Shown: one piece after another, positions 459 through 18,191 of the stretch
Layout of the letters: every line of letters starts with the position of its first letter
How positions within the stretch are numbered: position 1 is the first letter of the stretch
Source of the DNA: Pseudomonadota bacterium
Lineage (GTDB): Bacteria > Myxococcota_A > UBA796 > GCA-2862545
Direction: 5' to 3'
Length of the DNA stretch: 41,896 bases
Assembly: GCA_023954855.1 (NCBI GenBank)
Contig: JAGSGY010000049.1
Span: forward strand, 1 to 41,896
Notes under the pieces: generated by a model
Seen by the model: only the letters and a program-made list of their open reading frames with translations
Database searches by the model: none
Told to the model about the DNA's origin: nothing
Program-made: the position numbers and the translations under genes

Positions 459-3400
459 CTAAGAGACTGGTTCTTCATCGTCTTCGGTGTCGTTGAGCAG
501 TGCGGCCGCATCCCCGGGCGAAAGCTCTTCGGTCGGAGGCCGTGAGAGCGCCTCGAGAATCCGTTCGAAATGAACTTCGCCGTCTCGGACGATGGCTCGG
601 TAGCTTCGGTGCGCATCATCGTCGCGGAACAACAGATGCGACAGCGGCTCCGCGATGATGTCGTCGATGGCTCGCAGGGCGGTGCGGGCGCCAAAGCCCG
701 AGTCACGGCGGTGCGACACACAGAGGTCCACGACATCCGGGTCCCACGAGAGGTTGATCCCCTCGAGGGCTGCGCGCTCGCGGAGCTGGTCCAGGTGCAT
801 CTGGATGATCTGCGCCAAAGACTCATCCGCGAGCGGACGGAACCAGATCACCTCGTCCATGCGGTTGATCAGCTCGGGGCGGAAGTACGGCTTCACGCGC
901 TCGATGACCCATTCGCGTGAGGCCTCTGCTGCGGCGCCGCCGAAGCCTACACGGGTCCGAGAGCTGACCTCGGTGCCCGCGTTGGTCGTCATGATGAAGA
1001 AGGCTTCGCGGGCCTCAACACGACGGCCCTCGGAGTCCGCGATGACCCCCTCGTCAAAGAGGGAGAGGAAGACGGCCTGCACGTCCGGGTGAGCTTTCTC
1101 GAACTCGTCGAGAAGAACGACGGCGTACGGGCGCCGCCGCAACGGCCCAGTCAACTGGCCCTCCTCGCCATGGCCGGAGTAGCCGGGAGGGGCGCCGAGC
1201 AGGCGGCTGACCGTGAACTTGTCGGAGTACTCGGACATGTCGAGCTTGATGAGTGCGTCGCCCTCGGGGAACAGGAAGTCGGCGACCTCGCGGGCCAAGT
1301 GCGTCTTGCCGACTCCAGAGGGGCCGACGAACAAGAACACACCGCGGGGTCGCTTCGGGTCGCGAAGGCCGGCACGGGAGAGCTTGACGGTGTTTGCGAG
1401 GTGCTGGACGGCTTCGTCTTGGCCGATGACCTGACCCTTCAGGTCGTCTTCCATGTTGGACATCCGCTCGCGCTCTTCGGAGGTGAGCTTGTTCACGGGA
1501 ATGCCGGTGCGCTCGGCGACGACCTTGGCGACGACCGTGGCCGTGACCTGACTCTCGCCGCCAAGGCTGGCCTCGGCGCAAGCCTCGTCGAGTACGTCGA
1601 GTGCCTTGTCAGGAAGGCGGCGGTCGGGGATGAACCGAGCCGCCATACGCACGCATGCCTCGATGGCCTCCTCGGTCACGGAGACGTCGTGGTGGCTCTC
1701 GTAGAGATGCTGAATCTCGCTGAGCAGGTTCACGCTGTCCTGTAGTGATGGTTCGTCGATCGAGATGGGCTGGAAACGCCGCTCGAGCGCCGAGTCGGAC
1801 TCAAAGTGCTTGCGGTACTCGGCCAGTGTTGTCGCTCCAATGACCGTGATCTCGCCTCGGGCGAGGGCGGGCTTCAGAATGTTCGCGGCGTCGAGCGAAC
1901 CACCTTCCGTGCGTCCGGCGCCGACGAGGGTGTGAATCTCGTCGATGAACAGGATGATGCCGGGGTTCTCTTTTGCCTCGCGAATGATGGCCTTGAGACG
2001 CTCTTCGAAAGTGCCACGGTACTTGGTCCCTGCCACGAGCGAGCCAATCGAGAGCTCGATGATGCGTCGGTCCGCCAGTCGGGCTGGACGGCTGTCCCCG
2101 GCGAGCACCTTTGCGACACCTTCGACCACCGCGGTCTTTCCAACGCCTGGGTCGCCAAGCAGCAGCGGGTTCGCCTTCTGTCGACGGACCAGCGTCTTGA
2201 GCACGCTGCGGATCTCTTCCTCTCGGCCGACGATGTGTCCGAGGCGGCCATCGCGGGCGAGCGCAGTCAAGTCCCGTCCCTGCTCATCGAGGGTGGGGGT
2301 GGCGCTCTCCTCCTCTTCTTCGACGATATCGTCGTCATCCCCGCTGCGACGTAGCTGCCCCTCGCAATAGGACTTTCCGTCGAGGGCGAACTGCGACTGT
2401 GGGTCGATCGTCAGCGCGCGTTCCCAGAGCGGAAGGGCCTCTTTGTAGCGGCCGAGTGAGTTGAGCGCCGCAGCCTTGCCCTGCAGAGCGAATGCGTGGC
2501 GTGCGCCGACGACCAGGGCCCGGTCAAACCACTCGAGACAGCCCTCGTAGTCGCCGAGCATGCGCATGGCCTCGCCGCGGCCGGCGAGCGAGTAGAGGTA
2601 GTCGCCGCGGATTGCCAAGGCGCGGTCGTAGGCCTGAATCGCCTCGGCGTAGCGCTCATTCTTGCGGTGGGCCTCGCCGATGTTGGTGGCGGCTTGGTAG
2701 TGATCGGGCTGAATCGACAGGCAGCGCTCATAGGCTTCGATGGCGCGCCGGAACTGGCGGTCGTCTTCGAGGGCCATTCCCTGGCGCAGTGCGGCCTCGG
2801 CAAAGCTGGGGTCGATGGCCAAGGCTCGGTCGAACGCCTCGATGGCAGCCGGGTAGTTGCGTTCCTTGTGAAAGGAGCGGCCGCGGTCGAGCTCGTCGCG
2901 GGCAGCGCCACGGTCGCCAGCGGGCTTCGGCTCGGGGCGGGTGGCTTGGGACCGGCCCAGCTGCGTTTCGGTGTGACTCATGCCTTGGAGTGCGCGTGCG
3001 TCGCTGGGTGCGGCCGCGACTGCGCGGGACCAGACCTCATGCGCTTCGTCGAGCTTGCCGAGGGCGCTGAGTGAAGACGCATGTCCGATGAGGGCATCGA
3101 CGTTTCCGGAGTCGAAGCCAATGACGTGGTCGAATTCCTCGGCTGCCTTCTCGAACTCGCCGAGCATCCACAGCGTCTGGGCATGGCCGTTGGAGACGCG
3201 GGAGTCGCCGCCATGCGTGACCAGAAGGGCATCCCAGGCGGCAAGCGCTTGCGTCAGCAGGCCGGCCTCGGTCAGTGCGCTCGCGTGAAGAAGGCGCGTC
3301 TCGATATCTTCGGCGCCGCGCTCGATGGCCGAGGCGTACGCATGGACAGCTCGGGTGGGTTGGCCTGCCTGGGTCCAGGTGCGGCCGAGCAGCACCAGGG

Positions 3401-4772
3401 GCTCGGCGAAGGTTTCATCGAGCTCCGCAGCCTTGGTGAGGGCATCGACGGCTTCGGTCCAGCGGCCCTGAGCGACGAGGGCGCGCGCTTCGTTGTAGGG
3501 GACACGTGCAGCGTCCGAGCCCGCGTCGTCTGGGGCCGGGTGTGCGGCACGGGCGTAGGCCGCTTGCCGTTCGCGACGCGAGACCTCGGCTCTCGCGTGG
3601 CGCAGGCCGCGGTCCGAGACAGGATCGCCGGGGTCGACGCCGAGGGCGCGCTGCCACAGCGAGAGGGCTTCTTCGTGGCGTGCCAGGTCGGTGAGCACGG
3701 TCGCCTTGCCCCGCAGCGCATCGGCGGATGTAGGCAAGGATGCAAGCGCTTGGTCGTAGGCGGTCAGCGCCTCGTCGACGCGACCCAGCGTGTGCAGCGC
3801 CTGGGCGTAATGGGTGAGCGAGGGCACATGGCCCGGCGCGAGCGCGAGCGCGACACTGAAGCGGCTGAGGGCCTCCTCAGGGCGACCTGCAGCCTCGAGC
3901 ACGGCGCCCCGTCGCCAAGCGGCATCGAGGTGCTTCGGATCGAGGTCGAGGACCTCGGACCAGGCGTCGTGGGCTTCATTCCAGCGGCCAAGCGCGTCGA
4001 GCGTGCGGGCCAGAGACGTGGCCGCTTCGATGGACTCGGGATCGGCTTGGACGGCGGTGCGGTAAGCGGCAATCGCCTCGTCACTTCGGGCGTCGGCTAG
4101 CAGGGCCTGTGCGCGCTCCGTCGCGACCCGGCAAGCATGCTGGGCCTCGGAGAGACCGGGAGGTGCCGGAGGGGCGTCGGCTGCTGCGGGCGTCTTCTTC
4201 GCGTGCACGCGCGCCGATGCTTCGGCCTGGCCGCGGCTCGCGAAGGGGCTCGAGGGCTCGAGGCGAAGCGCATCTTCCCAGTACGGCAGGGCCTCGGCGA
4301 AGCGCCACAGCGCGTTCAGGCAGGCGGCCTTTCCGCGAAGTGCGAAGGCGTGCTCGGGGGCGAGGGAGAGGGCATGCTCGAAGAGCGGCAGTGCTTCTTG
4401 GGCACGGCCGAGTACGCGCACCGTCTCGGCGGCTCCGGCGACTGCGTGCAGGTGGTCCGGGTCGAGGGCGAGGGCTCGCTCGAACACGGGTTCGGCCGAG
4501 AGGTGGCAGTCGCCTTGGCGAAGGGCCTCAGCCAGTGCCGTGACGGCCTGAATGTCGTTGGGCGCGATGTGGGTGGCCTGTTCCGCCGCGTCGATTGCGC
4601 GACTCCAGTGCTCCGAGCTCGCGTGAATGCGGGCGAGTTCGAGCAGGGCCTCGACGAAGTCCGGATCGGACTCGAGCGCGGCGGTGAACTCGGCGACTGC
4701 TCGTTCGACTTCGCCGCCTTGGCGGGCGCGGAGTCCTTCTTCGAAGTGCGTCAAGGCCGGCTCGTCGTGCAT
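459..4772 (-). CDS. TPR super-repeat / ClpA-ClpC-type AAA+ unfoldase fusion
   Basis: Predicted 1437-residue cytoplasmic protein. Residues 1-810 are TPR repeats; an acidic linker (about 811-825) leads into a Clp/Hsp100 double ATPase. D1: Walker A GDPGVGKT (873-880), pore loop KYRG (917-920), Walker B ILFIDE (940-945), arginine finger ALERRF (995-1000). D2: Walker A GPSGVGKT (1150-1157), pore loop GYSG (1197-1200, where GYVG is usual), Walker B VVLLDE (1218-1223), sensor-2 GAR (1361-1363). No ClpB-type coiled-coil M domain separates the rings, and the usual Clp N domain is replaced by TPRs. TRVGFGG (1273-1279) sits where ClpA and ClpC carry the ClpP-docking IGL/VGF loop, so it may feed a protease. 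The start is set at 4772 because GGGGAG lies just upstream; an in-frame ATG at 4802 has no ribosome site. Substrates are unknown; the TPRs probably select them. Confidence 0.88.
2343..4772 (-). repeat. Four TPR super-repeats of about 206 residues
   Basis: The TPR half of the protein is itself periodic. The anchor AL-x-G recurs with its glycine at residues 147, 355, 563 and 765, that is 208, 208 and 202 residues apart. Each anchor is followed by a similar EALxLWxxAL unit, and three of the four blocks are followed by Pro/Ala-rich or acidic linkers. Each block holds five to six TPRs. This indicates duplication of a whole multi-TPR block rather than of single TPRs. Confidence 0.7.
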
Positions 4773-4802
4773 CGTCTCCCCAATGCCTCCTCGCGGAAGC
4801 AT

Positions 4803-4845: not shown

Positions 4846-5574
4846 TCAGTCTCGGAAGCGGTACAAGCCGGCGGGCTTACGCGAGTGGTACCGGCGGCCA
4901 GGTACGGCCTCGACACGGCCCTCAGCGACCCATCGGCGAAGACGCCGACGGAAGTTCCCCGGATCGGTTCGCGTGCCGAGCACGGCGTCTGCGGCTGCGC
5001 GAAGCTCGGATGCGGTGAAGGTCGGGGGGACCAAGCGAAACAGCAACTCACCGCGCTGGACTCGCTCGCGAAGAACGCGCTGGGCGGCCTCAAGGATCGC
5101 GTCGTGGTCAAACGCGAGCGGCTCGGGCAGGGCGTCGATGTCGAACCACTGGGCCTTTGCGGCGTCGTCACCTGCGGCCACGAGGGGGGCCAGGTCAGGC
5201 CGGACCAAGGCGTAGTACGCGATCGTGACCACGCGAAGCCTCGGGTCTCGGTACGGCGAACCGAAGGCGCCCAGTTGCTCGAGCCAGGTGGCTGCACCCG
5301 GTAGGCCGGTCTCTTCTTGCAGCTCCCGCGCCGCCGCATCGCGCAGGTCTTCGCCCTGGTCGACAAAGCCGTCGCCGACGTCCACAAAGCCGCCAGGCAG
5401 GGCCCAGCTTCCTGCAAACGGCGGTTGAGCGCGCTCGATGAGCAGCAGCTTCAGCAGCCCGTCGATGACGGTGAACACGATGAGGTCGCAGGTGAGCGAC
5501 GGGCGGGCCCACTGATCTGCGCGGGCTCTATAGGCGTCGACGTCCGACTCGCTGAGACCGTGGTCGTCACGCAT
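4846..5574 (-). CDS. nrtR: NrtR: Nudix-domain regulator of NAD metabolism
   Basis: 242 residues. A Nudix domain (about 25-165) carries a complete Nudix box, G69 ... E75 ... RELQEETG (83-90) with a final Leu. A C-terminal winged helix (about 181-242) has the NrtR-type signature FTASELR...NFRRRL...LYRF. NrtR proteins bind ADP-ribose-type ligands and repress NAD synthesis and salvage genes; many have lost hydrolase residues, but here the box is intact, so ADP-ribose pyrophosphatase activity is possible. The gene is last in pncB-pncA-nrtR and its ATG overlaps the pncA stop (TGATG), which implies translational coupling. A longer reading frame upstream lies over pncA and is not used. The family call is firm from motif and context; whether it acts as enzyme, regulator or both is inference. 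Confidence 0.88.
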   Translation of the reverse strand: MRDDHGLSESDVDAYRARADQWARPSLTCDLIVFTVIDGLLKLLLIERAQPPFAGSWALPGGFVDVGDGFVDQGEDLRDAAARELQEETGLPGAATWLEQLGAFGSPYRDPRLRVVTIAYYALVRPDLAPLVAAGDDAAKAQWFDIDALPEPLAFDHDAILEAAQRVLRERVQRGELLFRLVPPTFTASELRAAADAVLGTRTDPGNFRRRLRRWVAEGRVEAVPGRRYHSRKPAGLYRFRD

Positions 5575-6365
5575 CAGAGGGTGACCTCTCGGCTCTTCGC
5601 GAGCGCCATGCCTGCCGTTGCGAGTTCGGCGGTGAACGCCGCTCCGAGACTGTCGAATCCGGGCACCGAGCTCGCGAGGTCCTCGACTAAGACAATGCGC
5701 TCGGCCTCGCCGCCCCACGCCGTCACGAGGTCCCGCACGGTGTTGGCGACGCAGTGCGAGAGCGCCTCTCCGGCGACCAAGACGGTGTCGGCTTGCCGCA
5801 GGGTCTCTACCCATGCGTCGTCCTGGTGGGTTCGCGCGTCGGCGGGGTCAACCACCTCGGCATGCACGGCCGAGAAGTGCTCGGTCCATGGACTCAGGCC
5901 CTTCCACACATAGGTGGCGCGGCGAAGGTGCCGCGTCTCCCAGCGACCGATGGCTTCGTTGAGCGGCGCCCAGACGGCATGCCCCGACGTTCCAACCAGG
6001 CAGTGCTCGGGCCACACTACGTGCGGGTATCGCTCGGCTTGCTCCAGGCTGCGCAGGTAGGCGAGCGTGCGCTCTTGCGCGTCGGGGTCGCGGGTCGACC
6101 ACTCGCCGGTCTGCATCTGTTCTGCCGAGATAGCGGTGAAGGGCGGCGGAGGATTGCCCTCGGCGTCGGCCCACCAGAGTGGGTGGCTGATGTCCATCTT
6201 TTGGTGCGTGTCGAGCGTCACGTGGACGGCGTCAATCTTTTCCGAGAGCCGGTCGATCATGGCCGCGAGCCGGTTCATGTCGCCGTCTGCGCCCGGCACC
6301 GAGAGGGCCCCATCCGGCGACACGAAGTCGTTCTGAGGGTCGATGATGAGGAGATGGGTGCTCAT
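5574..6365 (-). CDS. pncA: Nicotinamidase-like isochorismatase-family hydrolase
   Basis: 263 residues, cytoplasmic cysteine hydrolase expected to convert nicotinamide to nicotinate and ammonia. The family triad is visible: D9 in DPQNDF, K155 in VWKG and C205 in SHCV. A metal site is formed by D52, H54 and H61 (LDTHQKMDISHP). It is about 50 residues longer than E. coli PncA, so a related isochorismatase-type amidase cannot be excluded from sequence alone. Placement between pncB and nrtR strongly favours nicotinamidase. The start codon has GGAGG at good spacing and lies 12 bases after the pncB stop. The stop overlaps the nrtR start. Confidence 0.85.
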   Translation of the reverse strand: MSTHLLIIDPQNDFVSPDGALSVPGADGDMNRLAAMIDRLSEKIDAVHVTLDTHQKMDISHPLWWADAEGNPPPPFTAISAEQMQTGEWSTRDPDAQERTLAYLRSLEQAERYPHVVWPEHCLVGTSGHAVWAPLNEAIGRWETRHLRRATYVWKGLSPWTEHFSAVHAEVVDPADARTHQDDAWVETLRQADTVLVAGEALSHCVANTVRDLVTAWGGEAERIVLVEDLASSVPGFDSLGAAFTAELATAGMALAKSREVTL

Positions 6366-6377
6366 GGGGTCCTCCGG

Positions 6378-7847
6378 TCAGTAGCGGTCGTGGGTCCTAC
6401 GGCTCGCGTCGAGCTCGTCGGCGAGTGCCTGTGTGGCGGGCGAGAGCACGACGGCGTTCGGCTCTCGGAAGCGCTTCACCAGGGCGGGGGAGAGCACGTT
6501 GAAGAACACGGCTTCGGTGCCCTGGCCGGTGAGCTGGTAGTAGCCGTCGGGCGGACACTCACCTTGCTGGCCGACGACGGTCATCGGCAGACGACCGCGC
6601 TCGGCACCCTGTGGCGCGGAGAGCCTGAACACGACGGGCCTTCCGGGGATGGACGACTTGGCGGGGTTGTCCGAGAACTTCATGGTCGCTCGGCGTCCCG
6701 TCTGCGAGAGCTTGTAGACCGCCCCGATGTCACCGCGGGTGGGCAGCGGGGAGTGCGGCTGCACGAGGTACTGGCCATACATGTACTTCTGGTGGGACTT
6801 CGGAAAGCCCGTGAACTCGGCGAGCTCTTCGAACTTGCGGGTGATCTCGGCATCGAAGCCTCCGCCCAGGTTCAGTCCCGCCTCAAGCCCTTGCTCCTCG
6901 AGCATGTTGACGCCGAGCAGGTAGTCGCCGCGCATGGTCGACTCTGAGTCGAAGCGCATCGAGAACAGCCGTCCGGGAGTCTCCTTCATGACCTCGAGGG
7001 CGACGGGAAGGCCACTCATGCGGGTGGAGTAGGTGTCGAGCAGGAAGGTGACGGCACCCGGGACGTTGTCGCGGACCGCGGTGAACGCGTCATAGTCGGA
7101 GCCCCACCGCTGGGTATGTTCGTGGCCCGTGGTGCCGGCCGGATTCATGCCGAGTTCTTTCGCGAGCAAGACATTGGAGGTGTAGCGAAAGCCCGCCTCA
7201 CGTGCGGCCGTCAGCGCGGCGCGATGCTGATCCATGCACGACACGGCGCGCATGCCTGCCTCCATCACGCGGGCCGGGTCACCACCCGCGGCGTCGAGGG
7301 CTGCCGTTGCCCGCTTTTTGACGAAGGCGTGGTACCCCTCGGGATCGGCGCGCACACCGGGGTCACGAACATCGGCGTCGTCGAGGAGGGCGCGGATGAT
7401 GTCGGCTTCGGCCTCACAGCTGGCCACCATCAATCGGTTCGGGACGTGCTCGTCTTCGAGCCTTGCGAGCGTCGCGACCTGAATCTGGAACTGAAGCCAG
7501 ATCAACTGTGGCTCGAGCCAAGACACGAGCGCCGAGGGGCCCGAGATGATGGCGACAGGCTCGCGGTCTCCGAACCAGCTGCCCTTCGGGAGGGCTTGCA
7601 CGGTGACCTTGCCCGCCATGGCCGCTCTCCAGGAATCGTCCATGCGCATGCCGTTGGCCACAAGGTAGGCGCTGTCGTCCTCGGTGAGACGCGGCAGCAG
7701 GGACTGCACATAGGAGGGGATGTCCACCGGCAGGTAGAATGGCCCGCCGCGACGCAGCATGAGCACGAAGGTCTCTGGGCGCAGCGGGGCGCCGGCTTGG
7801 GCCATCACCATCTTGTACTTGTCGGTCGCCAGAACGGATGGGGTCAC
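6378..7847 (-). CDS. pncB: Nicotinate phosphoribosyltransferase
   Basis: 489 residues. It converts nicotinate and PRPP to nicotinate mononucleotide, the entry step of the Preiss-Handler pathway. Family features are the N-terminal TDKYKMVMAQA, a central GTTGHEHTQRWGSDYDAF block followed by FLLDTYST (PRPP and substrate site), and KFSDNPAKSSIPGR near the C-terminus. The length is normal for PncB. The start is GTG at 7847, with GGAGG at 7852-7856 immediately upstream; an overlapping ATG at 7849 is out of frame. It is the first gene of the operon, so the palindrome in its leader would control all three genes. A nicotinamide-specific (NadV) role is less likely because a nicotinamidase follows. Confidence 0.93.
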   Translation of the reverse strand: MTPSVLATDKYKMVMAQAGAPLRPETFVLMLRRGGPFYLPVDIPSYVQSLLPRLTEDDSAYLVANGMRMDDSWRAAMAGKVTVQALPKGSWFGDREPVAIISGPSALVSWLEPQLIWLQFQIQVATLARLEDEHVPNRLMVASCEAEADIIRALLDDADVRDPGVRADPEGYHAFVKKRATAALDAAGGDPARVMEAGMRAVSCMDQHRAALTAAREAGFRYTSNVLLAKELGMNPAGTTGHEHTQRWGSDYDAFTAVRDNVPGAVTFLLDTYSTRMSGLPVALEVMKETPGRLFSMRFDSESTMRGDYLLGVNMLEEQGLEAGLNLGGGFDAEITRKFEELAEFTGFPKSHQKYMYGQYLVQPHSPLPTRGDIGAVYKLSQTGRRATMKFSDNPAKSSIPGRPVVFRLSAPQGAERGRLPMTVVGQQGECPPDGYYQLTGQGTEAVFFNVLSPALVKRFREPNAVVLSPATQALADELDASRRTHDRY

Positions 7848-7856
7848 ATTGCCTCC

Positions 7857-7879
7857 AATGCGGTCGTTGTGACCTTATT
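7857..7879 (-). promoter_or_regulatory. Candidate NrtR operator in the pncB leader
   Basis: Interrupted palindrome AAT-gc-GGTC-(5 bases)-GACC-tt-ATT. It ends one base from the GGAGG ribosome site of pncB, so bound protein would block transcription or translation. NrtR regulators are known to use palindromes upstream of NAD genes, and nrtR is in this operon. The protein assignment is inferred. Confidence 0.55.
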
Positions 7880-8004
7880 GTAGTCCGTCGGCCGCGGAGG
7901 GCAAGGGCCCTGATTGGACTCATTCGATCCCTTCTCGACGATCGGCATGGAAAGCACCTCGTAGAGGTGTGTGTGATTCCGATTCTGGTTTTACTGGCAC
8001 TAAT

Positions 8005-8023
8005 TACTGTTACCGTTACAGTA
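8005..8023 (+). promoter_or_regulatory. Dyad before the MerR-family gene (probable autoregulatory operator)
   Basis: Arms TACTGT and ACAGTA are perfect inverse complements separated by 7 bases (TTACCGT). The dyad ends 5 bases before the ATG of the regulator gene. MerR-family proteins commonly bind dyads in their own promoters. No convincing -35/-10 pair was found. Confidence 0.5.
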
Positions 8024-8028
8024 GTTTT

Positions 8029-8535
8029 ATGTCGACTTCTTCCCTGCATCGCTATCGAGACCAGGCCTTCAGCCTCGCCGAGTTGGTCCAGGCATCCTGC
8101 GAGCTTCTCGCGGGTCACGTGCCCACGGATGCTCGCGTCTCTCCGCAGCCCGATGCGCGCACCGTGCGCTACTACCAGACCCTCGGCATCGTCGACCGCC
8201 CCGAAATGACCGGGCGGCGGGCTCGCTATGGCTTTCGGCAGCTCGTGCAGGTGGTCGCGACCAAGCTCCTTCAGGGCCGCGGGTACTCGCTTGCCCAGGT
8301 CCAGACCGCGCTCAGCGGTCGCACAACCGACCAGATCTCGGCTGCTGCCGCGTCTGCCCTCGGTGTCTCTCTCCCTCCGTCCCCGCCCCCCGCGAAGCCC
8401 GCTGTCGTCCGCCCCCTTGTGGCCGCAGAGCTGGCACCAGGAATCACTGTCACCATCGACCCCGCACGTGTGGCCGATGTGGATGATCTTGTTCGCCGCC
8501 TCAGCGCGGTTCTTGCCTCTGGAGGCTCCTCATGA
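8029..8535 (+). CDS. MerR-family transcriptional regulator
   Basis: 168 residues, cytoplasmic DNA-binding protein. The winged helix-turn-helix signature begins with FSLAELV, and RTVRYYQTLGIVDRP forms the recognition and wing region, followed by RYGFRQLVQVVATKLLQGRGYSLAQVQ, which is typical of MerR. A Pro-rich linker (PPSPPPAKP) leads to a short C-terminal region with no Cys cluster, so a metal sensor is unlikely. The ATG at 8029 is chosen because it follows the dyad and starts a normal MerR N-terminus; in-frame sequence upstream would run through the dyad. The gene overlaps the VIT/VWA gene by ATGA, so it probably regulates its own operon. Confidence 0.88.
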   Translation: MSTSSLHRYRDQAFSLAELVQASCELLAGHVPTDARVSPQPDARTVRYYQTLGIVDRPEMTGRRARYGFRQLVQVVATKLLQGRGYSLAQVQTALSGRTTDQISAAAASALGVSLPPSPPPAKPAVVRPLVAAELAPGITVTIDPARVADVDDLVRRLSAVLASGGSS

Positions 8536-10907
8536 CGTCCCTCATTTCTCCCACGCTCCCCGCTCCACACGATGACCGAGGCTTTGGTGGGCTGATTGCT
8601 CTAGTCGAGGGCGTCGAGCATCCGCTTCCTCTGCGTGAGGTGACCGTACGTGGGCACATCACCGGTGGCTTCGCGCGGACCGTGATTGAGCAGCACTTTG
8701 CGGCTCCGGAAGGTACGGCAGCGCTCGAGGCTGTGCACATCTTCCCGCTGCCGCCAGATGGTGCGGTGACCGAGGTGGAGCTGATCGCAGGAGATGTGGT
8801 GGTTCGCGCCGAGTGCCATGAGCGAAAGGCGGCCGAGCAGGTGTTCGAGAAGGCCCGCGAATCGGGTCATCGTGCCGCTCTACTCACGGCCGAGCGCGCT
8901 GATGTGCACACCCTCCGGGTCACGAACTTGCCGCCTGGCGAGGCGATTCAGGTGCGCATTGTCGTCATCGAGGCACTCGACAACGTCGACGGTCGCTTTC
9001 AGTGGCGTTTCCCGACCGTGGTCGCGCCTCGGTTCATGCCGGGCAACCCCACGGGACACGCCGGTCCCGGTGTGGCACCTGACACCACCCACGTGCCCGA
9101 TGCGAGCCGGATCTCCCCGCCGCTGCGCCTCAAGGGCGGAACGACCCTCGACCTAGAGGTACGTGTCGAAGGCCCCGTCTCAGAGGTGGCCTCATCGCTG
9201 CACGCGCTGACCGTAGGGTTCGGCGAGGGTGGCGTTCGCGTCTCTCCGTCGGGCGATGCCTCGCTGGACCGCGACTTCGTCCTCGCGTTTTCTACGGGTG
9301 ATGCCGAACAGGTGGCCGCACGTGCGTGGACCGATGGAAAGGCGACGGCTGTGCTCGTGGAGCCGCCGACCCTGCGGATTCCAGAGGCGCTGCCCCGCGA
9401 TGCCGTCTTCATCGTCGACGTTTCGGGTTCGATGGGCGGCCAGAAGATCGAGGCGGCTCGGCGGGCACTCGTCGCGGCCCTGCACGGCCTCATGCCCGGT
9501 GACCGCTTTCAGTTGATTGCCTTCTCGTCGGGAATGACCGCGTTTCGTGCCGGGTGGACCGAGCTGACAGACCAGACCTTGGCCGCCGGCGACCGCTGGA
9601 TTGCCTCGCTTCGGGCGAGCGGCGGCACGGTGATGCTTCCACCGATTCAGGCGGCACTCGATGGAGCGACCCCTCCAGGACGGCTGCGCACGGTGCTGTT
9701 CATCACGGACGGTCAGGCGGGCAACGAGGCCGAGTTGGTGGCGGCGGTGCACAACCGACGGGCAGAGGGCCGCTTCTTCACCCTCGGCATCGACACGGCG
9801 GTCAACGCCTCGCTGCTCAAGCGTCTTGCTCGCGTGGGCGGCGGAGTGGCGGAGCTCGCGACCCCCGACGACAACATCGAGTCCATCGTGGCCCGGCTCG
9901 AGGCGCGCTTTGGTTCACCGATGGCGCTCAATGTGACCGCGCCCGGGGCGCTTGAGGCGTCGGACCTCTTTGCCGGTCGTCCAGCCCTTCTCTGGGTGGA
10001 CGGCGCCCCTGAATCCGTCGAGCTGACGGGGGAGGGCTTCGCGGCGACTGTGACGCCCAAGGCTACCCAGATGCCGCTCGCGGCCCTGCTTGCCCGTCAC
10101 CAGATCGCGATGCTCGAGGACCAGATTGCCCTGCAGCCATGGACCGAGGAGGCGACGCGTCCCCGCATCATCGAGCTCGCGCTGGCGCACACGCTCGCGA
10201 GTCGCTTCACCGCTTTTGTGGCCGTGGAGCGCTCTTCCGCATGGGAAGGGGACCGTGTTGCGGTGACCCAGCCCGCAGAGCTTCCACACCAGTGGCAGGC
10301 GATGTCTGCAGGTGCACCACCGCCGCCGATGGCCATGCGTGCCGCGGCTGCACCGTCTCGGAAGCGCCGCAAGATGGCGATGAGGCCGTCCGCTCCGCCG
10401 CCGGAGATGCTTGACGAGTCGAGCCTCGACATGATGATGGACCTCGAGATGGGCGGCGCCCCGCCGGCACCGAGTCCGGCGTCCAACGCGCGGTCTGGCA
10501 TTGGCGCGCTCTTCGGCAAGGTCGCGGAGGCGTTCTCGGGTCGCAGCGAGTCTGTTGAAGCCGAGGAAGCCGAGGAGTCTGTTGCACCAACCGGGGACCC
10601 CGCGAGCCGCCTGGCCCGCACTCAGTCGGCGGATGGTTCCTTCGGGCAGGACGTGGCTCGGACCGCTGCGGCCTTGCTTGCCCTGGTGCTCCTTGGCCAC
10701 ACGCGTCGGGCTGGCGTCCGTCGTCGTACCGTGCTCAAAGCCGCTCGCTGGCTCGAGGGCCATCGCGAGGACCCGCTCGCGGCACTCGCTCTCGAGGCAT
10801 TGGCGGAGGCCGAGCGCGGTGCGACTCCTGCGCGCGTCGAGGGTTGGGCTCGGCTGCTCTCAGCGGGTGCCGAGGGACATGCGCTGTCCCAGGCGGTGGA
10901 CGCATGA
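8532..10907 (+). CDS. VIT and von Willebrand A domain protein
   Basis: 791 residues, no signal peptide, so probably cytoplasmic. A VIT domain (about 25-150) is followed by a VWA domain whose metal-ion-dependent adhesion motif is D296-x-S298-x-S300. After the VWA come a Met/Pro-rich low-complexity stretch (PPPPMAMRAAAAPSRKRRK, then DMMMDLEMGG) and a C-terminal helical segment that starts QSADGSFG (from residue 698), reminiscent of the Q-x-x-x-G-x-F repeats of alpha-toroid folds. VIT-VWA proteins are widespread and mostly uncharacterised scaffolds. The start overlaps the MerR gene (ATGA) and the stop overlaps the next gene (ATGA), so all three should be made together. Confidence 0.9.
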   Translation: MTSLISPTLPAPHDDRGFGGLIALVEGVEHPLPLREVTVRGHITGGFARTVIEQHFAAPEGTAALEAVHIFPLPPDGAVTEVELIAGDVVVRAECHERKAAEQVFEKARESGHRAALLTAERADVHTLRVTNLPPGEAIQVRIVVIEALDNVDGRFQWRFPTVVAPRFMPGNPTGHAGPGVAPDTTHVPDASRISPPLRLKGGTTLDLEVRVEGPVSEVASSLHALTVGFGEGGVRVSPSGDASLDRDFVLAFSTGDAEQVAARAWTDGKATAVLVEPPTLRIPEALPRDAVFIVDVSGSMGGQKIEAARRALVAALHGLMPGDRFQLIAFSSGMTAFRAGWTELTDQTLAAGDRWIASLRASGGTVMLPPIQAALDGATPPGRLRTVLFITDGQAGNEAELVAAVHNRRAEGRFFTLGIDTAVNASLLKRLARVGGGVAELATPDDNIESIVARLEARFGSPMALNVTAPGALEASDLFAGRPALLWVDGAPESVELTGEGFAATVTPKATQMPLAALLARHQIAMLEDQIALQPWTEEATRPRIIELALAHTLASRFTAFVAVERSSAWEGDRVAVTQPAELPHQWQAMSAGAPPPPMAMRAAAAPSRKRRKMAMRPSAPPPEMLDESSLDMMMDLEMGGAPPAPSPASNARSGIGALFGKVAEAFSGRSESVEAEEAEESVAPTGDPASRLARTQSADGSFGQDVARTAAALLALVLLGHTRRAGVRRRTVLKAARWLEGHREDPLAALALEALAEAERGATPARVEGWARLLSAGAEGHALSQAVDA

Positions 10908-11197
10908 GCATCGACGACTGGAAGCAGGTCGCACCGTCGCTCGACATTCGACTCGCGTTCCGCTGTCCCGTGCCGTGGGATGCGATGACCGTGTCAGGCG
11001 AGGGGGTGCGTCACTGCGACACCTGCGACCGGGCGGTGTTCGACTTGCTCGGCCGCGGCCGCACCGAGATCGCGGCGCTCATCGAGGAGCACGGCGAGGA
11101 CCTGTGTGGCCGTGCCCGGGTTCGCGAGGATGGCAGGCTCACCTTCGGACGGTGTGCGTCCGGGCCGATCATGCGCGGTCGAATCGTCGCGCGCTAG
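10904..11197 (+). CDS. Small CxxC protein of the MerR-VIT/VWA operon
   Basis: 97 residues, no signal or membrane segment. It has a single Cys early (FRCPVPWDAM), then HCDTCDRAVFDL, LCGRAR and a final GRCASG. This spacing of CxxC followed by V-x-D-L is one I recognise from small uncharacterised proteins of deltaproteobacteria and may bind zinc. It is encoded directly after the VIT/VWA gene with an ATGA overlap, suggesting a partner or assembly factor. Its TAG stop shares the CTAG tetranucleotide with the stop of the convergent topoisomerase gene. No function is assigned. Confidence 0.78.
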   Translation: MSIDDWKQVAPSLDIRLAFRCPVPWDAMTVSGEGVRHCDTCDRAVFDLLGRGRTEIAALIEEHGEDLCGRARVREDGRLTFGRCASGPIMRGRIVAR

Positions 11198-13095
11198 ACG
11201 TCCAGCGCGTCCGCGGCGATGTCTGAGCCCTCGGCGAGGATGAAGTCGCGGCGCGGCTTGGCATCCTTGCCCATCAGGCGCTGCACGGTGAGCTCGGCGA
11301 GCTCCCGCTCTTCGAGGCTGACCTGAAGCATGCGGCGTGAGTTCGGATCGAGCGTGGTCTCAAACAGGGTCTTCGGAGGCATCTCTCCGAGGCCCTTGAA
11401 TCGCGTGATCTCGGGCTTGGCGCGGGCGGGAAGCCCGTCGAGCACCTCGTTGAGGTCGATGTCATCGAGGGCCCACCAGGTTTCCTTGCCGACGTTCACG
11501 CGGTACAGCGGCGGCTGGGCAATGTACACGTACCCGCCTTCGATGAGCGGCTTGAGGTAGCGGTAGAAGAAGGTGAGCAGAAGGGTCGTGATGTGGTGCC
11601 CATCGCTGTCGGCGTCCATGAGCAGGACCACGCGGCTGTACCGCAGTTGGGACTCGTCGTAGTCCTTGCCGATGCCACAGCCGAGGGCGGTCACGATGTT
11701 CGAGAGCTCTTCGTTCGCGAGCACCTTCTTGAGCTGGGCCTGCTCGCAGTTGAGCACCTTTCCACGTAGCGGAAGAATCGCCTGGGTCCGCCGGTCGCGA
11801 CCTTGCTTCGCGGAGCCGCCGGCCGAGTCGCCCTCTACGATGAACAGCTCGCGCTCGTCCTGGTCGCTGGCACTACAGTCTGCGAGCTTGCCGGGTAGGC
11901 TCATGCGCGACTTGCGCGGCTTGCGGCGAACCTGCTGGGCGGCTTGTCGTGAGGCGATGCGCGCCCGAGCGGCCTGAACGGCACGACTGACGAGGACCTC
12001 GCCTCGGTTCTTGTTGTCGTGGAGCCACTGCTCGAGCAGGGGACGCACCGCGCCCTCGACCCACTGCTTGGCTTCGCCGTTGTTGAGACGTTCCTTGGTC
12101 TGGCCCTGAAACTGCGGATCCGAGATGAAGATCGAGAGCACGGCGACCACGCCTTCGCGGAGGTCGTCGGCCGTCACCGTGAGGTTCTTTGGCTTGAGCT
12201 CGTGGGTCTCCATGAAGTGGCGCATGGCCTTGACCAGCGAGTCCTTCAGTCCCTGCACGTGCGTGCCGCCGTCGGCAGTCGGGATGCCGTTGACGTAGCT
12301 CTTCAGCCGCTCGCGGGGAGCATCGCTCCAGGTCATGGCGAGCTCGATGCGGAAGTCGTCGTTCTTCTCGAGAACAAAGGGCGCATCGACCACAGGAGTG
12401 GCCCCGGTTCGGGCCACGATGGCGTCGAGGAAGTCGGCCACGCCGCCGTCGTGCTTGAACTCGTGGGTCTCGGAGTTCACCTGGTCGCGGAAGATGATCT
12501 TCAGGCCCTTGTTGAGGAAGGCCTTCACCTCGAGCCGCTGGAAGATGCGACCCGGGTCGTAGGTGGTGTCGTCGAAGATCTTCTCGTCGGGCGTGTACGT
12601 GATGCGCGTGCCGCTGCCGCGGGCGGGCCCGATCTGGGCGACGTCGCCGGTGGGACGGCCGCGCTTGTAGACCTGCACCCACTCGGAACCATCGCGGCGA
12701 ATGCGGGCCTCGAGCTTGCGCGAGAGGGCGTTGACGACCGAGGCGCCCACACCGTGCAGACCGCCAGAGGTGGCGTAGTTCTTCTCACCGAACTTGCCGC
12801 CGGCGTGAAGGGTCGTGAGGATCACCTCGAGGGCCGAGCGCTTCTCGACGGGGTGCTCATCGACGGGAATGCCGCGGCCGTTGTCTTCGACCGACATGGT
12901 GCTGCCGTCGCTGTGAAGCGTGACCTTGATGGTGGTCGCGAAGCCGTTGATGGCCTCGTCCACCGAGTTGTCCACGACTTCCCAGAGCAGGTGGTGCAGT
13001 CCATCTGGACCGGTGCCGCCGATGTACATGCCCGGGCGTTTACGGACGGGCTCGAGGCCCTTGAGAACGGCGATGTCACGTGCGGAATAGCTCAT
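11194..13095 (-). CDS. parE: Type IIA topoisomerase subunit B (ParE-like)
   Basis: 633 residues, the ATPase subunit of topoisomerase IV or gyrase. GHKL ATPase motifs are EVVDNSVDEA, DNGRGIPVDEH and GGLHGVGASVVNALS. The TOPRIM domain shows VEGDSAGGSA and DADSDGHH, and the C-terminus has FKGLGEMPP. The length fits ParE and short GyrB proteins, without the insert seen in long proteobacterial GyrB. It follows the A subunit with an ATGA overlap. Partner order and length favour topoisomerase IV; since the rest of the genome is not visible, gyrase cannot be fully excluded. Confidence 0.88.
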   Translation of the reverse strand: MSYSARDIAVLKGLEPVRKRPGMYIGGTGPDGLHHLLWEVVDNSVDEAINGFATTIKVTLHSDGSTMSVEDNGRGIPVDEHPVEKRSALEVILTTLHAGGKFGEKNYATSGGLHGVGASVVNALSRKLEARIRRDGSEWVQVYKRGRPTGDVAQIGPARGSGTRITYTPDEKIFDDTTYDPGRIFQRLEVKAFLNKGLKIIFRDQVNSETHEFKHDGGVADFLDAIVARTGATPVVDAPFVLEKNDDFRIELAMTWSDAPRERLKSYVNGIPTADGGTHVQGLKDSLVKAMRHFMETHELKPKNLTVTADDLREGVVAVLSIFISDPQFQGQTKERLNNGEAKQWVEGAVRPLLEQWLHDNKNRGEVLVSRAVQAARARIASRQAAQQVRRKPRKSRMSLPGKLADCSASDQDERELFIVEGDSAGGSAKQGRDRRTQAILPLRGKVLNCEQAQLKKVLANEELSNIVTALGCGIGKDYDESQLRYSRVVLLMDADSDGHHITTLLLTFFYRYLKPLIEGGYVYIAQPPLYRVNVGKETWWALDDIDLNEVLDGLPARAKPEITRFKGLGEMPPKTLFETTLDPNSRRMLQVSLEERELAELTVQRLMGKDAKPRRDFILAEGSDIAADALDV

Positions 13096-15443
13096 GAGTC
13101 CACCTCCTCATCGACGGCGACTGGGGGCTCGTCACCCTTGCCCAGCTGCACACTCGTGCTGCGGATCCAGGTGTCGATGGTGCCGCGTTGCAGCACGACA
13201 TTGCCGCGTCCACCGCGCTTGGAGACGCCAAACTTGCGCTCGGTCACGTTGATGTCGCGGCCCTTGCCGGTGATGACCGCGGGCCCCTGGATGGTGTTCA
13301 GGGCCAGGCCAAAGGCCATGATGCGGTCGTCGTCGCGGAGCTTGAGGCCGATGACGCCCTTGGAGACGCCCTTGCGGGGAGGAATCTCCTCGATGGGGAA
13401 CAGCATGGCGCGGCCCAGTGTCGAGGCGACACAGGCGTTCTCGCCTCCGCGGACGGGCAGCACCGACAGCACTTCTTCGCCCTTGGCGGCGTTGACGCGG
13501 CAGTAAAGGCGGCCCGCCTTGGTGCTGGTGTCCTCGTGCGAGGCAATCGGGAAGCGCACCGCGCGTCCATGCACGGTCATCGCCACGGCGTAGGGCGGCG
13601 GGGGAGTGCCGTCGGCCAGGGGCAGGGTCTCTTGCACTTCGATGCGGTGGCGTGCGTCGTGGCTGATGACGCCCACGACCCGCTCGCCGTCCGAGAACTT
13701 GAAGTGCGCCTGCAGGGGCTCACCGTAGCCGGTTGTCGCCGGAACCTTGTCGACGCGCATGACGTATGCAGCACCGTGGCTGCCGAAGAAGGTCAGCGTG
13801 CTTCGGGTGTGGGCCTTGATGAGCCAGCCGATCTCGTCGTCTTCGCGGATGCGGATCTTGTCGAGGTCCGAGAACGAAGACTGGCGCTTGATCCAGCCGC
13901 CGCGCGTGACCACGACGTAGGCCTCTTCCTTCACGATGTAGGCGTCTTCGTTGTAGGTCAGGTCGAGCACCGGGGCACCGACGACCGTGCGGCGCTCTTC
14001 GCCGTAGAAGTTGCGAATCTCGATCAGCTCGGTGCGAACCACACCCCAGAGGCGCTTCTTGGACGAGAGGATGGTCTCGATGGCCTCGGCCTCGCTTCGC
14101 TTCTCTTCGAGCTCCTCGACGATCAGCGCAATCTCGAGCTTGGCGAGGCGGTACAGCTTCAGCTCGAGGATGGCATCGGTCTGGATCTCGGAGAGATCGA
14201 AGTGATCCATGAGCTTTTCGGCGGCGTCGCGCTTGCCTTCCGACTCGCGAATCAGGCGAATCGCCTTGTCGAGGTCGAGGAAGATGATCTCGAAGCCTTC
14301 GAGCAGGTGAATCCGCTCGCGAAGCTTGGCGAGGTCGTGCTCGAAGCGCCGGCGGACGGTCTCGAAGCGGAAGGTGAGCCAGTGGCTCAGCACCTCGACC
14401 AGGTCGAGTCGGCGGGGCTGGGCGACGTCGGTGCCCTCGGTCGGGACCAGGGCCGTGACGTTGACGGGAAAGGAGTTCTCGAGCGGGGTGCGCTTGTAGA
14501 GATAGGCCATCACCGCTTCGATGGAGCCGCCCATCTTGACTTCGATGACCACGCGGATGACGTCGGTGGACTCATCGCGGACGTCGACGACCTGCGGAAG
14601 CTTCTTGGCCATCACCTCGGCGCCGATCTTCTCGAGAATCGAGGCTTTGTTCTGCCCGTATGGGATCGAGTCGATGACGATGAGCTTGCGGCGGCCCTCT
14701 TTCTCGACCGTGTAGGTCGCGCGCATGCGGACCTTGCCGTGGCCGTTCTCGTAGATGTTGATGATGTCGGCGTGGTCGTTGAGGATCTTGCCGCCGGTGG
14801 GGAAGTCTGGGCCCTTCACGTAGGCGCACAGGTCGGCGACCGTGCTCTTCGGCTCGTCGATCAGGGCGATGGTCGCGTCGATGACCTCGCGCAGGTTGTG
14901 CGGAGGAATGCGGGTCGCCATGCCGACGGCGATGCCCTCGCTGCCGTTGACCAGCAGCTGTGGGAACTGCGCCGGAAGCACGATGGGCTCGAAGCGCTGG
15001 CCGTCGTAGTTGGGACGGAAGTCGACCGTCGACTTCTTGATCTCGCTGATCAGCTCCTCGGCGAGAGGACGCAGCTTGCACTCGGTGTACCGCATCGCCG
15101 CAGCGCGGTCGCCGTCGAGTGAGCCGAAGTTGCCCTGTCCATCGACCAGGGGGGCGAGGAGCGAAAAGGGCTGCGCCATGCGGACGAGAGCGTCGTAGAT
15201 CGAGCTGTCGCCGTGGGGGTGAAACTTACCCATCACCTCGCCGACGACTGCCGCGCACTTGCGGTACCGCCCACCAGGGTGAAGCCGCAGCTCGTTGAAC
15301 ATCGTGTAGAGGATGCGCCTCTGCACTGGCTTCAGTCCGTCGCGCACATCCGGAAGCGCTCGGGAGGTGATGACCGAGAGCGCGTACGAGAGGTAGCGCT
15401 CACGGGCCGCAATGTGCAGCGGGACCGGCTCGATAGCCAGCAT
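13092..15443 (-). CDS. parC: Type IIA topoisomerase subunit A (ParC-like)
   Basis: 783 residues, the DNA cleavage subunit. The catalytic tyrosine is Y119 in [10 protein letters not shown]. The quinolone-resistance region [10 protein letters not shown] keeps Ser80 and Asp84, the residues expected in a drug-sensitive enzyme. A coiled-coil and leucine-rich gate region (about 350-490) is followed by a beta-pinwheel C-terminal domain from about 495. SKRGGRG at 741-747, near the very end, resembles the GyrA box but with Ser in place of the first Gln. The start at 15443 has GGAG about 8 bases upstream. It is cotranscribed with the B subunit. ParC is preferred over GyrA because no standard GyrA box is seen at the start of the pinwheel. 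Confidence 0.87.
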
Positions 15444-15631: not shown

Positions 15632-18175
15632 CTAGCTGTCGAGCCAGACCTCACGGGCGGGAGCACGGAGGTTGTAGTGGCTGCTCATCGCGCGCCCATA
15701 CGCCCCGGCCACGCCGATCAACAGCACATCGCCCTCTTCGGTGGGGGGGAGTCGCCGGGCGCGTCCGAGGGTGTCGCCGGTCTCGCAGATCGGACCGACC
15801 ACGTGGGCTTCCCACTCAGCGGGAGTGTCGAGGCGAGTCAGGTTCACGATCGGGTGCCACGATCCGTACAGAGCGGGGCGAATCAGCGAGTTCATGCCGG
15901 TGTCGACACCGACGTAGCGCACGTGACCCTTCTGCTTGATCTGGGTCACTCGCGCGAGCAAGACGCCCGCCTCTGCGACGAGGAAGCGACCGGGCTCGAG
16001 CCAGAGCTGCCTGGACGTCGCCGCCTTGATCTGCCCGAGGGCATCGTCGAGTTCTGAGAGGTCGAGGGCCTGCTGTCCGGGGCGCTCGACCACCCCGAGT
16101 CCCCCGCCGAGGTCGAGGATCTTCGCCGTGGGGAAGCGCTCGACCGCATCGGCGAGAAAGCGCCCAACCTCAGCCCAGTTGTCGGCGCTGCGCACGCCGC
16201 TGCCGCTGTGGGCATGCAGTCCGATGACCGTGGCCCCGGCCCGCTTGAGCGCGGCTTCGAGTGCGTCGATCTCTTCCCAGGCGATGCCGAACTTCGAGGC
16301 CTTTCCGCCGGTCTGCACGTGCTGGTGATGTCCGCGTCCGCGTCCGGGATCGAGGCGAATGAACACCTCGGCGCCCTTGAAGAGCTCGGGCCAAGCCTGG
16401 ACCGGGTGCAGGTTGTCGAGGGTGACGTGTACGCCCGCCTTCAAGCCGGCGGCATATTCCTCACGCGGCGCAAAGTTCGGGGTGAACAGGACCTTGCCTG
16501 GGGGCAGGGAGCCGAGAACCGAGGACGCGTGGTCGAGCTCACCGGTCGACACCGTCTCGAGCCCTACGCCTTCGCTCCGTACCGTGCGGAGCACTTCGGC
16601 ATGGGGGTTGGCCTTCATCGCGTACAGCACTTGGTCGGCATGCTTGAGCGCGGTGAGCTGTCGTGCTTGCTGTCGGACGGTCGCACCGTTGTAGACGTAG
16701 GCGCAGCCCTGCTCGCCGATGGCCAGGAGCTCATCCCGTCGCTCTTGCCACCAAGCCCGCGTGGTCGCGGTCGGCCGCGGGGTCGTGAAGGTCTGCTCCC
16801 AGGTCGGGCCAAGGTCCGCGCGGCTCTCGAAGAGCGAGCCGTGCAGGCGTTCCACGAGCCTTGCCTCTTGGTCCGCATCGACCACAAAGGTGAGGTTTAG
16901 ATCGCTGGACGCGAGGCTGACCATGTGGATGCGGTGCTCTTGAAACAAGCCAAGCACCGGGCCAAGGCGGTGCATGACCCGCCGGATGCCGGAGCCCACG
17001 AGACTGACAGCCGCGGTGCCGCGGACGATTCGGGGACGGCAGTAGGGAGCCAGACGGTCCACGAGCGCGACAAGGGTGTCTTCGTCGACGGCCTGGGAAG
17101 GGTCGAGTGAGACGGTGACGCCGGTCTCGGAGGTGCTCACGAGGTCGACGGACAGCCCGAGCTGGGCAAACTCGCCAAATGCCTTCGCGAGGAAGCCGAC
17201 CTGCTGCCACATGCCGACGGTCTCCATCTCGACCAAGGTGACGCCGTTTCGAGACGAGATGGCCTTGACGCCTTCTGCACCGACGCGGTTGTCGATCACG
17301 GTGCCATCGATGTCCGGGTGCGGAGTGCAGCGGATCTGCAGCTCGATCCCGGCGTCCCGGAGTGGAGGAATGCAGCGCGGGTGAAGCACCTTCGCGCCGC
17401 AGGTCGCGATCTCCTGGGCCTCTGCATAGCTGAGGTGGCGAAGCAGACGGGCGCTCGGCACCTGGCGTGGGTTGGCCGTGTACATCCCTGGGACGTCGGT
17501 CCAGATCTCGCAGCGGGTTGCGCCGAGCTTGGCGGCGAACAGCGCCGCTGAGGTGTCGGAGCCGCCGCGTCCGAGCAACACGGTCCGCCCCGTCGTGTCT
17601 CGTGCGATGAAGCCTTGGGTCACGGCGATGGCGCTGCCCGGGAGGGCGGCGTTCAGCTCCGGTTGACGCTCGTGGGCGATGCGGGCCGAGAGAATGCGCA
17701 CACTCTCGGGCAGCTCCGGCTGGTCCACGGAAGTGAAGAGTTCCCGGGCGTCCATCCAAGTGGCATCGGCCCCAAGACGCTGAAGAAAGGCGGCGCCGAG
17801 GCGGGTGGACAAGATCTCGCCCGCGGACAGCATGCGCGCGCGCAGTCGTGGACTGACCTCGCCGATCAGGCTGGCGCCAGCGCACAGTCGCTTGAGGTCT
17901 GCCAGCTCCGCATCGATGCACGAGGGCGAGACCTCGAGGTCTTCGGCGTGCTTCAGGTGGCGATCAACCAGGCTCTGGAGGGCCTCTTCGTGGTCGCCGG
18001 CGAGAACGGCACGGCACAAGGCCTCGAGCTGGTCCGACACCTTCGACAGGGCAGAGCAGACCAAGACGACCTTGTGGCCCTCTGCGACGCGGTCCACGCA
18101 GACCTGGTGGATAGTGTTCCACCGAGCGCGCGATGCGACGCTGGTGCCTCCGAACTTGAGAACGACGATGGACAT
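15632..18175 (-). CDS. lysAC: Fused aspartate kinase / diaminopimelate decarboxylase
   Basis: 847-residue bifunctional enzyme joining the first and last steps of lysine synthesis. The aspartokinase part begins VVLKFGGTSV (residues 4-13) and ends in ACT-type regulatory repeats (about 300-460). The second half is a PLP-dependent LysA: MKANPH (about 525) holds the PLP lysine, and HAHSGSG plus ILDLGGGLGV form the phosphate and barrel sites. Such LysAC fusions are known in some proteobacteria, where the kinase is expected to be feedback-inhibited by lysine. The ATG at 18175 begins the conserved kinase N-terminus; an upstream in-frame start would add 36 unrelated residues over the DUF938 gene. It starts 16 bases after DUF938, so it may be read through from that operon. 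Confidence 0.93.
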   Translation of the reverse strand: MSIVVLKFGGTSVASRARWNTIHQVCVDRVAEGHKVVLVCSALSKVSDQLEALCRAVLAGDHEEALQSLVDRHLKHAEDLEVSPSCIDAELADLKRLCAGASLIGEVSPRLRARMLSAGEILSTRLGAAFLQRLGADATWMDARELFTSVDQPELPESVRILSARIAHERQPELNAALPGSAIAVTQGFIARDTTGRTVLLGRGGSDTSAALFAAKLGATRCEIWTDVPGMYTANPRQVPSARLLRHLSYAEAQEIATCGAKVLHPRCIPPLRDAGIELQIRCTPHPDIDGTVIDNRVGAEGVKAISSRNGVTLVEMETVGMWQQVGFLAKAFGEFAQLGLSVDLVSTSETGVTVSLDPSQAVDEDTLVALVDRLAPYCRPRIVRGTAAVSLVGSGIRRVMHRLGPVLGLFQEHRIHMVSLASSDLNLTFVVDADQEARLVERLHGSLFESRADLGPTWEQTFTTPRPTATTRAWWQERRDELLAIGEQGCAYVYNGATVRQQARQLTALKHADQVLYAMKANPHAEVLRTVRSEGVGLETVSTGELDHASSVLGSLPPGKVLFTPNFAPREEYAAGLKAGVHVTLDNLHPVQAWPELFKGAEVFIRLDPGRGRGHHQHVQTGGKASKFGIAWEEIDALEAALKRAGATVIGLHAHSGSGVRSADNWAEVGRFLADAVERFPTAKILDLGGGLGVVERPGQQALDLSELDDALGQIKAATSRQLWLEPGRFLVAEAGVLLARVTQIKQKGHVRYVGVDTGMNSLIRPALYGSWHPIVNLTRLDTPAEWEAHVVGPICETGDTLGRARRLPPTEEGDVLLIGVAGAYGRAMSSHYNLRAPAREVWLDS

Positions 18176-18191
18176 GGCCGGAGCCCTAACC

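Follow-up and report, generated by a model that had tools for sequence, protein, structure and literature searches.

A Clp ATPase fused to four tetratricopeptide-repeat modules keeps a ClpP-docking loop and is probably a protease feeder

Clp proteases usually select their substrates through a small N domain on the unfoldase and through separate adaptors such as ClpS and MecA. Docking of a hydrophobic tripeptide into clefts of the peptidase has been established for ClpA and ClpX (PMC7707817), and the presence or absence of this tripeptide in the ClpP loop separates ClpC from ClpB (PMC10149685). Here we describe TPR–Clp, a protein encoded in a 41,896-nucleotide contig (JAGSGY010000049.1, assembly GCA_023954855.1; hereafter the window) of a Pseudomonadota bacterium that is assigned to Myxococcota_A in the GTDB lineage. 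In TPR–Clp, an N-terminal region of tetratricopeptide repeats (TPRs) precedes a complete two-ring Clp ATPase. As it keeps the ClpP loop, TPR–Clp probably feeds a protease with substrates of its own choosing, and it defines a branch of these motors that had not been described.

A few described systems resemble parts of this arrangement. Disaggregation by SKD3 (human CLPB) requires its ankyrin repeats, which bind substrates directly (PMC9934407). As in TPR–Clp, a repeat domain takes the place of Clp_N, but SKD3 has a single AAA ring, carries ankyrin repeats rather than TPRs and is a mitochondrial disaggregase. We know of no ClpP partner of SKD3. N-terminal TPRs are also found in EccA of type VII secretion, on a CbxX-type single AAA ATPase, although TPR–Clp matches EccA weakly in NCBIfam (50 bits against a cut-off of 467). 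A recently recognized separate Clp class, ClpI of Actinomycetota, may or may not keep an LGF loop and, unlike TPR–Clp, has an N domain and an M domain of ClpC length; TPRs are not described in it (PMC10149685). A search of literature available without subscription found no paper on a TPR–Clp fusion.

A single reading frame joins TPRs to a two-ring ATPase

The fusion is one unbroken open reading frame (ORF) on the minus strand (459..4772), which specifies 1,437 amino acids from the ATG at 4772; all parts of the gene given below lie on that strand. A second in-frame ATG farther upstream, at 4802, would extend the gene to 459..4802 and the protein to 1,447 amino acids. The ATG at 4772, used in a preliminary description of this DNA, appears to be the better start because orthologues begin at sites aligned with MHDEP... 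and because a GAGGAGG stretch closely precedes it. Amino-acid positions here follow the 1,447-residue frame unless marked otherwise, such that the tripeptide VGF at 1285–1287 corresponds to 1275–1277 in the 1,437-residue frame.

Pfam places TPRs, which are 34-residue helical repeats, at about amino acids 14–819 (TPR_2, 234 bits, above the cut-off), followed by AAA (880–1011) and AAA_lid_9 in the first ring (D1) and by AAA_2 (1151–1318) and ClpB_D2-small in the second (D2). Clp_N was absent among the 25 of 38 Pfam families listed for the protein, and the TPRs fill the N-terminal region. At the D1–D2 junction, where an M domain would lie, TPR–Clp has 5 residues, much like ClpA with 5–6, whereas ClpC has about 66 there and ClpB about 130. 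The preliminary description, which had read the ORF as a fusion of TPRs with an entire two-ring Clp ATPase that has neither N domain nor M domain, is therefore borne out by the Pfam matches and the alignment.

The gene belongs to one bacterial family, in which 17 of 21 genomes carry it, including all nine of the best assemblies; one of the 17 has only a fragment, located where a contig ends. The proposed search for this domain order in genomes thus found it recurring across the family. None of about 358 further genomes sampled within the same phylum showed TPR–Clp; a looser threshold gave four extra matches there, with no ORF of more than 851 amino acids. Among 396 sampled genomes of another phylum there were 14 matches, and the TPR fusion was present in none of those read. 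We conclude that the gene is real and conserved, with a fair chance that it marks a wider, undescribed branch of Hsp100 proteins.

The ClpP-docking tripeptide is conserved

The VGF tripeptide (amino acids 1285–1287; 942..950) lies in the variable ClpP-loop region (1277–1298; 909..974), where it aligns with SVGFGG in the ClpP loop of the ClpA encoded by the same genome and with the [VLI]GF of ClpC. The earlier placement of VGF at the docking-loop position, rather than outside it, is upheld by this alignment. In all 14 orthologues whose sequence covers the loop, the region is variable except for a hydrophobic residue followed by Gly-Phe, and it is because the Gly-Phe pair is invariant within an otherwise variable loop that the placement lies far beyond chance expectation. 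In the alignment, this motif is absent from the ClpB of the same genome and from the ClpB, TssH, ClpK and ClpL references. In the structural model, residues 1281–1290 around VGF have a predicted local distance difference test (pLDDT) score below 50, as expected of a flexible loop.

A candidate partner peptidase is available in most of these genomes. The source genome encodes one full-length ClpP, at C161:74607–75146, together with an ordinary ClpA with ClpS adjoining it and ClpB, and 15 of the 17 TPR–Clp-carrying family genomes contain a canonical clpP (E < 1e-75), which answers the call in the preliminary description to look for this gene. Genomes G002, G004, G012, G015 and G020 have a second ClpP-like gene in addition to the main one.

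Four TPR modules, one of them strongly conserved

An AlphaFold2 model of the TPR region (pLDDT 90.8) comprises 44 helices arranged as four blocks of eleven, each consisting of five TPRs and a cap helix, with dips in confidence at the linkers between blocks. Together with a module hidden Markov model, it defines module 1 (amino acids 14–200; 4203..4763), module 2 (219–419; 3546..4148), module 3 (427–614; 2961..3524) and module 4 (631–819; 2346..2912), the last of which lies beside the ATPase. The blocks are mutually in register: the in-register offset was the best ungapped one in all six pairs, with 26–36% identity, and when block 4 was searched against the genome, only the other three blocks matched. 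The module profile detected four copies in the window, as it did in each N-terminally complete orthologue other than L041 (genome G002), which has two copies; in L041 the upstream parE stops 139 bp away, leaving no space for more. The '810 TPR residues' of the preliminary description form four separate five-TPR blocks rather than one array. A match to NCBIfam LcrH_SycD that passes its cut-off (125.6 against 104.8) was discarded, as we read it as the sum of many generic TPRs.

Conservation is concentrated in module 4, where mean identity across orthologues is 0.61, compared with 0.32–0.36 for modules 1–3. Within it, positions on the concave face reach a mean identity of 0.81, against 0.51 elsewhere; the concave positions of modules 1–3 range from 0.20 to 0.38. 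Judged from the sequences, this is the pattern of a putative ligand groove, whose residues include N707, R713, K714, R747, Q774 and N781. In a comparison made by eye with the carboxylate-clamp TPRs that bind Hsp70/Hsp90, N707 occupies an Asn position of the clamp, and the full Lys/Asn/Asn/Lys/Arg set was not seen.

An intact motor with an altered D2 pore loop

An acidic, flexible linker (amino acids 820–836; 2295..2345; pLDDT below 50 at 822–832) connects module 4 to the motor, which has the features of a class I Hsp100/Clp protein: two AAA+ modules with Walker A and B motifs, arginine fingers and pore tyrosines. D1 with its lid (about 841–1081; 1560..2282) contains the Walker A motif GDPGVGKT (2133..2156), with K and T invariant in the family, and an invariant pore loop, KYRG (2013..2024). 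D2, including its small domain (about 1082–1413; 564..1559), contains the Walker A motif GPSGVGKT (1302..1325) and the pore loop GYSG (1173..1184). Across the family, neither ATPase site varies at its key residues.

The D2 pore tyrosine is kept in 13 of the 14 orthologues and is Phe in L041. Position 1209, immediately after it, is Ala in five orthologues, Ser in four, Gln in two, Thr in two and Asn in one, whereas all 92 reference Clps carry Val or Ile at the matching position. GYSG in place of GYVG, to which the preliminary description had drawn attention as a possible influence on grip or speed, is therefore real, and because no orthologue has Val or Ile at this site it is one variant of a trait fixed throughout the subfamily rather than an oddity. 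In D2 of ClpA, it is the tyrosine of the GYVG loop that grips the chain (PMC9663308); we did not find a role for the residue that follows the tyrosine in that study.

By both sequence and fold, the D1–D2 model (mean pLDDT 76; 14 sequences) is closest to ClpC and to ClpC–ClpP complexes. ClpC tops the matches in a sequence search of the PDB, and structures 9a66, 8xoo and 9gi1 have a similar D1–D2 fold (VIA Z about 30–32, rmsd 5–7 Å over about 570–580 residues, 43–45% identity). ClpC shares the KYRG loop of D1 and the GF loop for ClpP; unlike it, TPR–Clp lacks Clp_N and the M domain of about 66 residues, has GYSG rather than GYVG, bears a TPR crown and falls outside the ClpC clade. ClpA resembles TPR–Clp in having two rings without an M domain and a ClpP loop of IGL or VGF type; TPR–Clp differs in its D2 pore loop, its TPR crown and its position outside the ClpA clade, and it lacks Clp_N and hence the ClpS site. 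ClpB, with an M domain of about 130 residues and no ClpP loop, matches on neither point. The NCBIfam models for ClpB, ClpA and TssH all match TPR–Clp far below their cut-offs (ClpA, 635.8 against 993.15 bits; TssH, TIGR03345, 626.4 against 884.95).

TPR–Clp groups with unfused M-less Clps

The phylogenetic position of TPR–Clp was estimated from 41 sequences (542 columns, LG+F+R4). The TPR family is a clade with support of 100/100, which becomes 97.4/98 with the unfused Clps L181 and L185, 89.6/92 once L182 and L191 are added, and 96.1/94 when TssH is included with these unfused relatives. In approximately unbiased (AU) tests, forcing the TPR family into ClpA (0.035), ClpB (3e-6) or ClpC (2e-6) was rejected in every case; a grouping of the TPR family with TssH was not (0.22). 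Taken as a statement of descent, the earlier label 'ClpC-like' therefore does not hold: the family lies outside ClpC, ClpB and ClpA, and what is ClpC is its best PDB matches. Earlier trees without the unfused relatives, containing one and later 12 TssH sequences, also joined the TPR family to TssH (0.98 by FastTree), and AU tests on the smaller set excluded neither ClpA (p = 0.22) nor ClpC. Placement within ClpA, ClpB or ClpC dropped out only after the unfused relatives had been added, and the deep placement, being sensitive to long branches, is provisional. On present alignments, TPR–Clp appears to group with uncharacterized, loop-bearing Clps that have no M domain, near TssH, the nearest named clade. 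The TssH (ClpV) references themselves have an M domain of about 110–160 residues, where TPR–Clp has 5, no GF loop and, in all but one, GYVG.

The unfused relatives, three from another phylum (L181, L182 and L185) and one from the phylum of the window (L191), share the short or absent M domain and a [VM]GF loop. Unlike TPR–Clp, they have no fused TPRs and carry GYVG in D2, and a Clp_N-type domain is kept, with Pfam matches in L181 and L182. TPR genes adjoin some Clp genes of this kind. At L187 (4754–9949, plus strand), a 1,731-residue protein that begins with a Cys-rich stretch and also contains a Ser/Thr kinase domain and numerous TPRs is encoded just upstream of a Clp with a short M domain and a GF loop, and its stop codon overlaps the Clp start as ATGA (L185, 1946). 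The TPR–Clp module profile matches the TPRs of this kinase–TPR protein, as it would score any TPR. At L188 (1593–9512, plus strand), a 1,306-residue protein with a weak TPR match, a small J-domain-like protein below the Pfam cut-off and another gene precede an M-less Clp with a VGF loop. A TPR gene was not seen adjoining the Clp at L189 or L191. There is thus one strong case of a split TPR/Clp pair (L185/L187) and one weak one (L188).

Three further sequences that scored like possible relatives were set aside: L193, which is a ClpA beside a ClpS-like gene; L192, which resembles ClpA; and L176 (genome G380), an M-less Clp of another kind, which has a VGY loop and lacks TPRs. The L176 gene (5155–7872, minus strand), from Deltaproteobacteria bacterium RIFOXYA12_FULL_58_15, encodes about 315 N-terminal residues with no Pfam match.

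Genomic neighbourhood

Upstream of TPR–Clp on the same strand, the window encodes topoisomerase subunits resembling ParE (subunit B; 11194..13095) and ParC (subunit A; 13092..15443), whose genes overlap. This pair occupies the same relative position and strand in 10 of 14 loci, the window included, and directly adjoins TPR–Clp in six; the fetched flanks of the other four loci do not contain it. The window itself has 6.4 kb of intervening genes between parE and TPR–Clp: 4846–10907 holds a NUDIX/NrtR-like gene, an isochorismatase-like gene, a 489-residue ORF with no Pfam match and, on the opposite strand, a gene for a VIT–VWA protein, all of which are absent where parE and TPR–Clp adjoin. Beyond parC lies an apparent lysC–lysA fusion (15632–18283, minus strand) that combines an aspartokinase (AA_kinase, ACT) with a domain of diaminopimelate/ornithine-decarboxylase type, and two plus-strand genes (24315–26039 and 27665–28768) have protein-kinase domains. 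PADLOC matches to PDC-M37B and DolB were rejected as evidence of defence, being partial AAA matches. A role in type VI secretion was likewise rejected, as no protein in the source genome scores above the TssH cut-off.

Discussion

The reading we favour, and consider somewhat better than evenly supported, is that TPR–Clp is a hexameric, ClpP-docking two-ring unfoldase that selects substrates, or one dedicated partner that delivers them, through TPRs in place of Clp_N. The analysis establishes its architecture, the four-fold module, the conserved loop, pore residues and ATPase sites, the conservation of the module 4 groove and the presence of clpP; the hexamer, docking to ClpP, capture of substrates by the TPRs and their degradation are what we infer. 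Each subunit of the hexamer would present four modules of five TPRs as an N-terminal crown. Module 4, beside the D1 ring, would use its concave groove to bind a conserved peptide or partner, and modules 1–3, diverging freely, might widen or vary the range of clients. The KYRG loops of D1 and the GY-x-G loops of D2 would then thread the captured chain into ClpP, held on the ring by the hydrophobic-Gly-Phe loops. The preliminary proposal that the TPRs stand in for adaptors of the ClpS/MecA type is plausible in these terms; the genome retains ClpS beside an ordinary ClpA, and therefore the TPRs would replace the N domain of TPR–Clp itself and not the ClpS of the cell.

Several observations weigh against this proposal. 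Genomes G010 (94% complete) and G014 (88%) both carry TPR–Clp and gave no clpP match, perhaps through assembly gaps. The clade adjoins TssH, a group without the ClpP loop; loss of the hydrophobic residue after the D2 tyrosine could weaken pulling; and module 4 could be conserved for its packing against the ATPase ring and not for any ligand. A rival reading is a ClpP-independent remodeller or disaggregase, whose TPR crown would grab a complex or aggregate for the rings to pull apart, as TssH does with the type VI secretion sheath or as SKD3 does, the Gly-Phe loop being ancestral or serving another contact. We think this unlikely, though worth weighing: repeat-domain Clps such as SKD3 are disaggregases, the tree puts the clade near TssH and the genome is already equipped with ClpA, ClpS and ClpP, but without ClpP it is difficult to account for an invariant hydrophobic-Gly-Phe motif in a loop that can otherwise drift, and the TssH and ClpB references do not have this motif.

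Somewhat less probable again is that the TPR region acts as a scaffold or localizer, selecting no substrates and tethering a ClpP-coupled motor to one fixed partner such as a kinase, a membrane complex or a product of the topoisomerase locus. The confinement of strong conservation to the module beside the ATPase, the coupling of an unfused relative to a kinase–TPR protein and the recurrent parC–parE linkage are consistent with such a tether, which would hardly be expected to keep four modules in nearly all genomes; the linkage may reflect shared location only, and the flanks at four loci lacked it. That TPR–Clp is an ordinary ClpA or ClpC with TPRs acquired by chance, or an artefact of assembly, we regard as highly improbable. 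ClpC is indeed its best sequence match in the PDB, but the AU tests reject a position inside ClpC, ClpB or ClpA and the genome has an ordinary ClpA and ClpB as well; recurrence of the architecture across family genomes, in a fully supported clade, refutes an artefact.

More speculatively, and in our view doubtful as it stands, TPR–Clp might be the fused form of a wider, undescribed clade of M-less, GF-loop Hsp100 proteins near TssH with TPR partners, which in one unfused relative would be a kinase–TPR protein linked by coupled translation. Such proteins would be signal-controlled ClpP proteases with TPR arrays as built-in adaptors and, in the fused branch, an altered D2 pore.

If TPR–Clp does feed ClpP through its repeats, about 20 TPRs per subunit, and possibly 120 per hexamer, would make it an extreme case of an adaptor built into a motor. 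It would offer a natural test of whether repeat arrays can serve as ClpP adaptors and, as the hydrophobic residue that follows the D2 pore tyrosine has been lost from an entire subfamily, of whether unfolding requires that residue. It also points towards an uncharacterized branch of the Hsp100 proteins.

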